Shown: piece after piece, positions 3,953 through 26,506 of the stretch
Numbering within the stretch: position 1 is the first letter of the stretch
How the letters are laid out: every line of letters begins with the position of its first letter
NCBI GenBank assembly: GCA_023382055.1
Contig: JAMCQN010000013.1
Span: forward strand, 62,001-126,000
DNA: 64,000 nucleotides
Direction: 5' to 3'
Source: Chloroflexota bacterium
Lineage (GTDB): Bacteria; Chloroflexota; Anaerolineae; J036; Brachytrichaceae
The notes under the pieces: model-generated
The model's input: the letters and a program-made list of their open reading frames with translations, nothing else
What the model was told of the DNA's origin: nothing
The model's database searches: none
Made by a program: the position numbers and the translations under genes

Positions 3953-4025
3953 TGGACCTGAGGGGATTCGAACCCCTGACCTCCTCAGTGCGATTGAGGC
4001 GCGCTCCCAACTGCGCTACAGGCCC
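3953..4025 (-). tRNA. tRNA-Ala (anticodon CGC)
   Basis: On the minus strand a complete cloverleaf can be folded: acceptor GGGCCTG with CAGGTCC, TAGCGCAG D-arm, loop ATCGCAC with anticodon CGC, and TTCGAAT T-loop. The G3-U70 pair, the alanine identity element, is present. CCA is not encoded. It is last of three tRNAs in the same direction. Confidence 0.95.
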
Positions 4026-4076
4026 GCGCGAAAACAAAAAGGATGAAGGACTTGTGCGGTTCCCTCATCCTTCTCA

Positions 4077-4148
4077 AGCGGGCGACGGGATTTGAACCCG
4101 CGACCTTCTCCTTGGCAAGGAGACGCTCTACCACTGAGCCACACCCGC
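4077..4148 (-). tRNA. tRNA-Gly (anticodon GCC)
   Basis: On the minus strand: acceptor GCGGGTG pairing with CGCCCGC, D-arm TGGCTCAGTGGTAGAGC, loop TTGCCAA with anticodon GCC, and TTCAAAT T-loop. The discriminator base is T and CCA is not encoded. Confidence 0.95.
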
Positions 4149-4169
4149 AGAACCTTCACGACTGAACAG

Positions 4170-4242
4170 TGCCGACGAACAGTCTCGAACTGTTGACCCC
4201 ACGATTTTCAGTCGTGTGCTCTACCAACTGAGCTACGTCGGC
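4170..4242 (-). tRNA. tRNA-Phe (anticodon GAA)
   Basis: On the minus strand: acceptor GCCGACG pairing with CGTCGGC, TAGCTCAGTTGGTAGAGC D-arm, loop CTGAAAA with anticodon GAA, and TTCGAGA T-loop. CCA is not encoded. First of the Phe-Gly-Ala cluster. Confidence 0.95.
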
Positions 4243-4322
4243 AATATGCCGCCTGCGTTTGAGCATCGAGATTTTACCGAATACTGGCGTAATGTCAAAC
4301 GTATCTCAACGTTTGAATCATA

Positions 4323-23438: not shown

Positions 23439-24677
23439 TTACGGGGACGTCTTGGGCGTCTCCGTGCCCATTGGCGCAAGTTCCACCTGTATCGTGGCAG
23501 GCAGTATGCTCTGCGCCGTTATCCCTGAGGGCACTCTGACGGCAGGCGTCAGTTGATGCACACCACTCGCCAATCCAGAGACATCCAGTTCCACGACCAC
23601 ATCGCTCTCCGTGAGAGTATTCAATATCGGAAGCGGCCCATTCAACAGGATGTCAACCGTATCCGGCGAGACAGTGCTCGAAAAAACAGGACTCAGCCCG
23701 ATCAATACGGGTATGCGTTTCACCGTCCGCGAGCCGATCAGCGGCTGTATGCGGATATGCACATTGACGCTGGTCTGCTTTTCCGATACCAGCGATACGC
23801 CGGGCGGCACATCCAGACCAACCTGCTCATCAACGTCGCTCTTGGCGCCATCAATCGAGACTTCCAGGGTCTCGATATACCCTTTAGTCGCCTGGACCGC
23901 TTCGACAGGGCCATAGATCGTGACAATGACCGGGTCAACCGAGACATCGGTGACAGCGTAACCTTCAGCAGGTTGTCCCTTCTTCTTCACCAGCACAGCC
24001 AGATCGCGGTAATTGCTGAGCTGCTCCATGGGTACGCGCACTGAGATGGTATCCGGGACAACCTGCACCCCCTGGACGACATCGCCCTCGCTGTCGCGCG
24101 CATAGGCGCGCACCTGTTGCTCGACCGTAGAACGCGCCCCGTCAACAGAGACAATGGCGTTTGCGCTCGCCACGCTCGAGATAGCCTGTTGCGATCCGGT
24201 GATCGTTACCTGGTAAGGGATCGAGGTGGGTGTTCCGGCGCGAAAACCCAGCGCCGGCGTGCCGATGATGCTGATGCGCAGTAACTGGGTGGTCTGCACC
24301 AGACGTTCGATCTTAACCACAGCGGTTACAGGCCTGGAAGCTAATATCTGCGCCTCAGCCACCGGCAATGTCGGTGTGAGGTAGACGACATGCTCACCGA
24401 CGCCCAGACTACTCAGGTCCACGTCAACGTGCATTCCGGCGGCATTGAGCGTGTTCAAAGTGCTGCGCGGCGCGCGAATCGTTGCCGTGATGGACTCCGG
24501 GATTGTCCCCGACCATGCATAACCGCTCAACTGGTTCAGGCCGAGTTGATCGACGCGCACGCTGATGGTGTCATCAACGATAGGGTCATCCTGCAGCGTT
24601 GCCAGCGTCCATGCGCCAAAACCAAAAAGCAGCGCAAGGGCTATCAGACCGAGGTTATTGACAAGCCAGCGAACCAT
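23439..24677 (-). CDS. YbbR-domain (CdaR-like) membrane protein
   Basis: A 412-residue protein with an N-terminal helix (about 6-25, NNLGLIALALLFGFGAWTLA) and four YbbR-type beta domains outside. The repeats can be followed by VDVDLSSL, VSVDGARS, LEVSIDGAKS and VELDVSGL segments. In many bacteria the YbbR protein CdaR controls the c-di-AMP cyclase CdaA encoded just upstream; here no cyclase gene is adjacent. The ATG at 24677 is preferred over 24695 because a TATAAT box lies 7 bases before it, which would give a leaderless mRNA. Divergent from glnA. Confidence 0.8.
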   Translation of the reverse strand: MVRWLVNNLGLIALALLFGFGAWTLATLQDDPIVDDTISVRVDQLGLNQLSGYAWSGTIPESITATIRAPRSTLNTLNAAGMHVDVDLSSLGVGEHVVYLTPTLPVAEAQILASRPVTAVVKIERLVQTTQLLRISIIGTPALGFRAGTPTSIPYQVTITGSQQAISSVASANAIVSVDGARSTVEQQVRAYARDSEGDVVQGVQVVPDTISVRVPMEQLSNYRDLAVLVKKKGQPAEGYAVTDVSVDPVIVTIYGPVEAVQATKGYIETLEVSIDGAKSDVDEQVGLDVPPGVSLVSEKQTSVNVHIRIQPLIGSRTVKRIPVLIGLSPVFSSTVSPDTVDILLNGPLPILNTLTESDVVVELDVSGLASGVHQLTPAVRVPSGITAQSILPATIQVELAPMGTETPKTSP

Positions 24678-24684
24678 TAAGCCT

Positions 24685-24690
24685 ATTATA
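24685..24690 (-). promoter_or_regulatory. TATAAT box of the YbbR gene, leaderless type
   Basis: On the minus strand TATAAT ends 7 bases before the ATG at 24677, so transcription would begin at or next to the start codon. No good -35 box is seen. Confidence 0.5.
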
Positions 24691-24750
24691 AACATCGGGC
24701 CGAATCGTGACTGAATGACGGCGCGTCGAAAGCGGTGCGGGAGAACCAAC

Positions 24751-24778
24751 TTGACGAAACTGCTGAGCGCCTTATAAT
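24751..24778 (+). promoter_or_regulatory. glnA: sigma70-type promoter of glnA
   Basis: TTGACG (24751-24756) and TATAAT (24773-24778) are spaced by 16 bases, the best promoter match in the window. The expected start is near 24785, just before the first hairpin of the leader, about 230 bases before glnA. Confidence 0.75.
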
Positions 24779-24784
24779 TGCGCC

Positions 24785-24893
24785 TCGTAAAAGTGTTGAT
24801 GCCGACACTTTTACCGTGAAAAGATTGATAGCAACGCACCTGGACGTGGTGGTTATTTACCCGATGGGAAATAACCATCACGTTTTTGTTTTT
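24785..24893 (+). ncRNA. glnA leader with two hairpins and intrinsic terminator (attenuator or small RNA)
   Basis: From the predicted start, a perfect 10-bp hairpin (24787-24796 with 24805-24814) is followed by 30 unpaired bases and then a long hairpin (24845-24858 with 24869-24882, plus an inner CCC/GGG) directly followed by TTTTTGTTTTT. This is a textbook Rho-independent terminator upstream of glnA. Either transcription of glnA is attenuated here or the promoter makes a separate RNA of about 108 bases. No known riboswitch or T-box pattern is recognised, and no antiterminator pairing was found by eye. Confidence 0.65.
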
Positions 24894-25012
24894 CGAGGGC
24901 GTTGTGTAACACTGTGACTAGCGATTTAGGATCAGGAATTGGGAATGGTACGATCCAACAGTATCCAAGATCGTCAGCAAACATCAGAGAATTGAAGGTA
25001 ACAAGGAGAGAT

Positions 25013-26506
25013 ATGAGCGACAAACTTACGATACCGTCTGAAAGCCTGCCGGGCGGCGGGCTGGCGCCTGCCGCCACCCCAATGACCGGCGCCGATGCGC
25101 TGGAGTTCGCCAAAATGCGCAAGGCGGCCCAGGTGGACCTTAAATTCGTTGACCTGCCCGGGCAGTGGCAGCATTTCACCGTACCAATAAACCAGTTCGG
25201 TGAGGATGCTTTTACGGAGGGCGTTGGATTCGACGGTTCTTCGATCCGCGGTTTCCAGGCCATCCAGGAGAGCGACATGCTGCTCTTCCCGGACCCGACG
25301 ACGGCGGTGATCGACCCGTTTTCGACCGGTGTGCCGACACTGTCTTTGATCTGCAACGTCAAAGACCCGATCACCGGCAAATCATATTCCCGCGATCCAC
25401 GCTATGTGGCGCAGAAGGCCGAAGCGTATCTGAAGACAACCGGAATTGCGGACTCCGCCTTCTTCGGACCCGAGGCTGAGTTCTTTGTATTCGATTCCGT
25501 ACGCTTTGACCAGAACCAGTACAGCGGTTATTACTTCATTGACAGCGACGAAGGCGTCTGGAACAGCGGACGGCAGAATGACGGCAAGGCCAATCTGGGT
25601 CACCGCCCCCGCTATAAAGAAGGCTACTTCCCCGTCGCCCCGCTCGACGCGCTGCAGGATATCCGCACCCAGATGACGATGACCCTGATCGCGCTGGGCA
25701 TCGATGTGGAAACCCACCACCACGAGGTCGCCACGGGTGGTCAATGCGAAATCGACATGCGCTTCGGTACACTGACAAAGATGGCGGACCAGTTGCTTAC
25801 CTACAAATATGTCATCCACAATGTAGCCCAGCGTAACGGCAAGACAGCTACCTTCATGCCCAAGCCGCTCTTCGCAGATAACGGTTCGGGCATGCACGTG
25901 CATCAGAGTCTGTGGACCGGCGGAAAACCATCCTTTGCCGATCCCAAAGGCTATGCAGGTCTGTCCGATATGGCTAAGTACTATATTGGGGGTCTGTTGA
26001 AGCATGCGCCGGCGTTGCTGGCATTGACCTCGCCGACCACCAATTCGTATCGCCGGTTGGTGCCAGGATATGAGGCGCCCGTCAACCTGGTGTACTCGCA
26101 GCGTAATCGTTCGGCCGCGTGCCGCATCCCGATGTACAGCCAGAACCCGAAGGCCAAGCGCGTCGAGTTCCGCTGTCCCGATGCGATGTCCAATCCATAC
26201 CTGGCGTTCAGCGCCATGCTGATGGCTGGCCTGGATGGAATTACCAACAAGATCGATCCGGGTGAGCCTCTGGATGTCGATATCTTTGAGCTGTCCGATG
26301 AGGAGAAGGCCAAGGTGCGCACCGTTCCAGGCAGCCTCGGCGAGGCGCTGGAAGCGCTGGAAAATGATCACGCTTTCCTGCTGAAGGGCGGCGTATTCAC
26401 TCCCGATCTGCTGGAGGTGTACATCGCCTACAAGCGCAGTCGCGAAATCGACCCCGTTCGCTTGCGCCCACATCCATACGAGTTCTACCTGTACTACGAA
26501 CTGTAG
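25013..26506 (+). CDS. glnA: glutamine synthetase, type I
   Basis: Makes glutamine from glutamate, ammonia and ATP. The ATG at 25013 has the Shine-Dalgarno AAGGAGAG; the upstream in-frame codons belong to the leader. The 497-residue protein shows [53 protein letters not shown] and [11 protein letters not shown]. At the place of the adenylylated tyrosine (NLYDLPPEE in E. coli) it reads DIFELSDEE, with Phe425, so it cannot be adenylylated on that tyrosine. The N-terminus has about 25 extra residues. It stands alone between its leader and a perfect terminator hairpin. Confidence 0.95.

Follow-up and report, generated by a model that had tools for sequence, protein, structure and literature searches.

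A probable ANTAR-type transcription attenuator in the glnA leader of a Chloroflexota bacterium and its relatives

Analysis of a 64,000-nucleotide stretch of a Chloroflexota genome (the window, from a 3.9-Mb metagenome bin of 207 contigs that was 83% complete) suggests that the glnA leader is probably an ANTAR-type attenuator that works through antitermination by an ANTAR protein. The features of the leader are listed in Table 1. It was about 228 bases long, running from approximately 24785 to the ATG at 25013, in agreement with the "about 230 bases" given in an earlier note on this DNA, and the gene downstream was indeed the glutamine synthetase (GS) gene glnA named there, of type I. The promoter, which the note had called the best sigma70 promoter in the window, scored 11/12, a score that it shared with a minus-strand site at 4298 just upstream of a tRNA cluster, so that its first rank was a tied one. 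The latter promoter (TTGACA-16-TAAAAT) preceded three consecutive tRNA genes (minus strand, 3953–4298). A gene for a YbbR-domain protein was divergent from the glnA leader, running the opposite way from 24677; a TATAAT-like box was located about 12 bases before its ATG (24677–24700, minus strand) and was recognisable in relatives, and the YbbR mRNA is possibly leaderless.

Table 1. Positions of the features of the glnA leader in the window
Feature	Position	Strand	Evidence
Sigma70-type promoter, TTGACG-16-TATAAT	24751–24778	+	11/12 match; CTTGACGAAA and TATAAT invariant in 7 genomes
Hairpin P1 (hairpin 1, H1), RNA 5′ end	24787–24814	+	z -7.5; compensatory changes, pairing kept in relatives
Putative antiterminator hairpin P2, CAC-CUGGAC-GUG	24837–24848	+	Stem invariant in genus; covaries across 30 leaders
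Intrinsic terminator, 14-17 bp stem, CCC/GGG apical pairs, U-tract TTTTTGTTTTT	24842–24893	+	Conserved in 7 genomes
Read-through part of the leader (119 bases), AAGGAG Shine-Dalgarno at 25003–25008	24894–25012	+	Sequence
glnA, type I glutamine synthetase, the putatively controlled gene	25013–26506	+	TIGR00653 669 bits; Pfam Gln-synt_C, Gln-synt_N

Hairpin P1 (GTAAAAGTGT/ACACTTTTAC) was the perfect 10-bp hairpin described in the note, with a folding energy of -14.5 kcal/mol; its stem length is given as 10-12 bp. It was followed, after a linker of approximately 22 nt, by P2, which had 3 bp only (-1.5 kcal/mol) and was weak alone. The full intrinsic terminator that had been reported was likewise present, with a 14-bp stem (CGTGGTGGTTATTT/AAATAACCATCACG) containing one G-U pair and then TTTTTGTTTTT at 24883–24893, and the region from 24785 to 24893 folded at -41.6 kcal/mol (z -6.7), with none of 200 shuffles as low. 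The 3′ strand of P2 was also used by the terminator, within its 5′ arm, which made the two structures mutually exclusive. Examination of the two loops revealed a G at hexaloop position 4 (G4) in both, GAUGCC in P1 and CUGGAC in P2; the hexaloop reading of P1, GUAAAAGUGUU-GAUGCC-GACACUUUUAC, required a U-G closing pair, and the minimum-energy fold of P1 was a tetraloop, favoured over this hexaloop. Two segments on either side of the terminator and U-tract, GCAACGC and GCGUUGU (24831–24837 with 24899–24905), were also able to pair, with similar flank pairings in three related genomes (G004, G003 and G002, with 10 bp in G002). Such a closing helix, in which the 5′ flank of P2 would pair with bases beyond the U-tract, is not claimed, the pairing being significant alone only in G002; a role of the flank pairing after read-through, e.g. 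in release of bound protein, is possible.

The same glnA leader, comprising promoter, P1 and terminator, was shared by the other four members of the genus and by two of the three sister-genus genomes. Across these seven leaders, CTTGACGAAA, TATAAT, CACC..GA.GTG and CCATCAC.T were invariant; in P1 and the upper terminator stem the sequence varied and the pairing was kept, with 10 pairs of P1 and terminator changed on both sides and a covariation of 0.302 as compared with 0.167 ± 0.026 after shuffling. The note had called for a covariance search of glnA upstream regions in relatives and had named a lack of conservation of the two hairpins there, together with uniform coverage through the region, as grounds against its reading; both hairpins were retained, with compensatory changes. 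Because of this conservation and compensatory change across relatives, the leader is more than a chance arrangement. P1 as a DNA operator was ruled out, since its sequence differs between species while its pairing stays. In the third genome of the sister genus (G016), glnA was located close behind another gene, which reads like a YgfZ/GcvT-type protein (L118, G016:C104), and the leader was absent; the second GS gene of this genome retains the switch, and its glnA has lost the leader or never had one.

Two covariance models were searched in the 28 genomes of the family. The first (R1), built from the seven glnA leaders, returned in the whole genomes its training set plus seven weak matches in other genera, five of which (E 0.009-0.15) immediately preceded a GS gene of a second, divergent kind (476 aa, below the TIGR00653 cut-off) that occurs in genera without the window's GlnA. 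The second (R2), covering the terminator part of the leader, gave 24 strong matches (E <= 2e-6) in 23 of the 28 genomes, one per genome except for two in G011, and every one was upstream of GS genes of two types; training members of either model match by construction, and the informative results are the location of the matches and the score gap, the next R2 matches appearing only from E 0.003 on. The match in the window (24832–24894) scored 48.2 bits, and the weaker matches included the leader of another second-type GS in G012, the same terminators read as reverse complements, and terminators with no relation to the element. Upstream of the second-type GS in every genus, the design was a promoter and then a GUCAC-CNNGAC-GUGAC hairpin, whose GUGAC strand opens the 5′ arm of a terminator with GUCAC at its end. 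The core shared by the leaders was a hexaloop hairpin (loop type CNNGAC) with its 3′ strand as the terminator 5′ arm; P1 was missing in most second-type GS leaders, and many of them had a single hexaloop only.

The terminated RNA of about 109 nt might instead be a stand-alone, trans-acting sRNA, with glnA transcribed on its own or by rare read-through. The anatomy (5′ hairpin, short linker, terminator) is that of an sRNA, but the element preceded GS genes of two types with covarying stems, no free copy away from its genes was found in the 28 family genomes, the promoter scan detected no second promoter between the terminator and the glnA ATG, and an overlap of P2 with the terminator would not be expected of an sRNA; we therefore consider this explanation highly unlikely. 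The note had left the choice between an attenuator and a stand-alone RNA; the attenuator is clearly favoured, since the terminator shares its 5′ arm with a hexaloop hairpin that is conserved, and since the element is tied to GS genes throughout a family in which ammonium-transporter genes (amt) have analogous leaders. The ANTAR-type layout, the small P2 and the amt leaders had gone unidentified in the note.

Beyond the family, R2 had no match among 95 loci of the class, and terminator-like hairpins upstream of glnA elsewhere in the class were only slightly above chance (approximately 13/94 as compared with 26/306 shuffles); a general, class-wide glnA attenuator is therefore unsupported. This near-chance rate would suit an element free of conditional control, such as a leaky constitutive terminator or insulator, or a 5′ hairpin that stabilises the RNA. 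In the leaders studied, however, promoter and terminator were jointly conserved, and there was an alternative pairing, superfluous for a plain terminator; we regard this as the least probable of the explanations considered. Strong terminators ending some 40-70 bases ahead of the start codon were also seen at a third GS gene (L287, L289 and L290 in G000, G001 and G002, respectively), without an evident hexaloop partner; these may terminate the preceding gene or represent an attenuator of a different kind. No such terminator was detected near the three GOGAT loci examined, which may stop short of the gene start.

In 30 leaders, 86.7% of the P2 cells were paired and the covariation was 0.722, as compared with 0.277 ± 0.042 after shuffling and <=0.18 for slid partners; this set was partly selected for the three inner pairs and G4, and the outer two pairs, which were outside the selection, covaried with many changes on both sides. 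A G4 hexaloop hairpin overlapping the terminator arm was found in 16 of 25 leader terminators as compared with 4 of 35 other terminators in the same loci (p 3e-5; amt leaders alone, p 6e-4), p-values that flatter the case, homologous leaders not being independent. No enrichment in leader terminators was seen for A, C or T at position 4. Loop position 1 was C (C1), not A (A1), in most family leaders; A1 loops were encountered only in G052, G174, P1 of G020 and of G011, the amt P1 of G018, and the amt leader of G012. Good dual hexaloops were seen in G021, G008, G159 and the amt leader of the window genome (G000).

Upstream regions of amt in the family, which were absent from the training of both models, often contained a terminator with its 5′ arm common to a hexaloop hairpin. 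In the window genome, the amt leader had a P1 (UCGCAUUC-CAGGGU-GAAUGCGA) and, about ten bases on, a P2 (GGC-CUGGAA-GCC) running into the terminator arm; in several family amt leaders a clear P2 was not seen. The pattern GGC-CNNGAN-GCC plus terminator was tried as a search and set aside, as it recovered several amt leaders and the remainder were seemingly chance sites. In G017, a long inverted repeat (TTCGCCGATTTCACTATCCC...GGGATAGTGAAATCGGCG) was located at two places, L252 (5′ of amt) and L358, and is probably a repeat element.

Exactly one ANTAR domain was found in 26 of the 28 family genomes. The ANTAR protein of the window genome (G000:C178) had a receiver and an ANTAR domain (REC-ANTAR) and was homologous to EutV and Rv1626, being closest to both among solved structures. 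With respect to EutV, Y164, which stacks on G4, was retained, R168 and N173 were replaced by Gln and Ser, respectively, and M172, which plugs the loop, was replaced by Arg. The change of M172 to Arg as the cause of C1 loops is unsupported, since family f39 has C1 loops with M172 kept. Two glnA leaders of f39, L157 (G159) and L155 (G233), had C1/G4 dual hexaloops (CAGGAC/CGGGAU and CGUGAC/CCAGAA, respectively) and, near the start codon, a GC-rich hairpin of 19-20 bp (AAGCCCUYGGAUYUGCGCGG type). Among class relatives, G052 had a glnA leader in which both loops were A1/G4 (AUGGCU, AUGGCA) and P2 overlapped the terminator, and in G054 an ANTAR gene was directly before a GS gene.

The same attenuator architecture might be operated by another RNA-binding protein or a small ligand holding P2. 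The C at loop position 1, the single-hexaloop leaders and the short P2 in the window genus would fit such a factor, as would G007, in which the leader was present and an ANTAR match absent (bin 92% complete). However, the enrichment of G4 and the overlap of P2 with the terminator are ANTAR hallmarks (PMC8934654), and the single ANTAR domain per genome, the textbook A1/G4 leader before glnA in G052 and the absence of a riboswitch match in Rfam also argue against it, leaving a non-ANTAR factor rather unlikely. The Rfam search, which included glutamine riboswitches and T-box, gave no plausible match to the leader at gathering scores or E<=10, consistent with the view in the note that it fits no glutamine riboswitch, glnA motif or T-box; MIR827 and snoRNA matches of the relaxed search were attributed to chance.

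Since P2 and the terminator share a strand and the terminator is far more stable, read-through needs something holding P2. In the mechanism we propose, RNA polymerase would start near 24785 and make P1 first, and the next sequence would fold either as P2 or, via the P2 3′ strand, as the terminator. Unaided, the much stronger terminator would prevail and the RNA of about 109 nt would be released. A nitrogen-shortage signal, presumably via a histidine kinase, would activate the cell's single REC-ANTAR response regulator, which would bind the hexaloops, hold P2 and block the terminator, such that glnA is transcribed. The ANTAR protein as the factor, this signal and this direction of control are what we infer as most likely. 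The same type of switch would stand before the second GS kind and the ammonium transporters in the family, and probably serves there as an on/off control of nitrogen assimilation. Whether this Chloroflexota lineage has an ANTAR regulon for GS and ammonium transport with a changed code, C1-N-N-G4-A-C as compared with A1-N-N-G4-N-N, often with a single hexaloop, and read by a REC-ANTAR protein in which the loop-plugging Met has become Arg, we judge to be evenly balanced.

We found no description in the literature of nitrogen-assimilation control in this family. If the proposal is true, one response regulator sets ammonium uptake and assimilation via RNA terminators. The altered loop code and the leaders with one loop would then put to the test the revised view of a single hexaloop as the minimal ANTAR target, and it would be explained how A1/G4-based searches could miss such regulons. 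The mechanism itself would be a known one, met in a new setting, and its altered loop code is open to testing.

The ANTAR RNA described to date consists of a pair of hexaloop hairpins, the second of which (P2) overlaps the terminator, with A at loop position 1 and a linker of 2-25 nt, and glutamine synthetase and ammonium transporters are among the targets predicted for it (PMC3369931, PMC8934654); in the eut leaders of Enterococcus faecalis the P1-P2 linker is 5-12 nt, and 14 already failed (PMC3369931). Judged by its sequence, the glnA leader is most likely an ANTAR-like attenuator variant, and it is not filed as a proven member of the group because of the mostly C1 loops, the 3-bp P2 in the window, the P1 tetraloop, the long linker and the single-hexaloop GS leaders. 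To the glnA RNA motif and glutamine riboswitches (Rfam), its likeness is that of a cis element upstream of glnA. The ANTAR leaders that have been predicted in other bacteria for ammonium-transporter and glutamine synthetase genes (PMC3369931) have the same target genes and the same layout; those predictions rest on the A1/G4 model, by which the C1 variant would probably be missed, and "Chloroflexi" is absent from the main text. As compared with eutP/EutV (E. faecalis), nasF/NasR (Klebsiella) and amiE/AmiR (Pseudomonas), position 1 here is mostly C instead of A, the loop is often CNNGAC, and P1 lies about 22 nt away or, in many leaders, is absent, whereas the G4 hexaloops, the P2 3′ strand in the terminator 5′ arm, the REC-ANTAR protein in the genome and the nitrogen genes downstream are alike.
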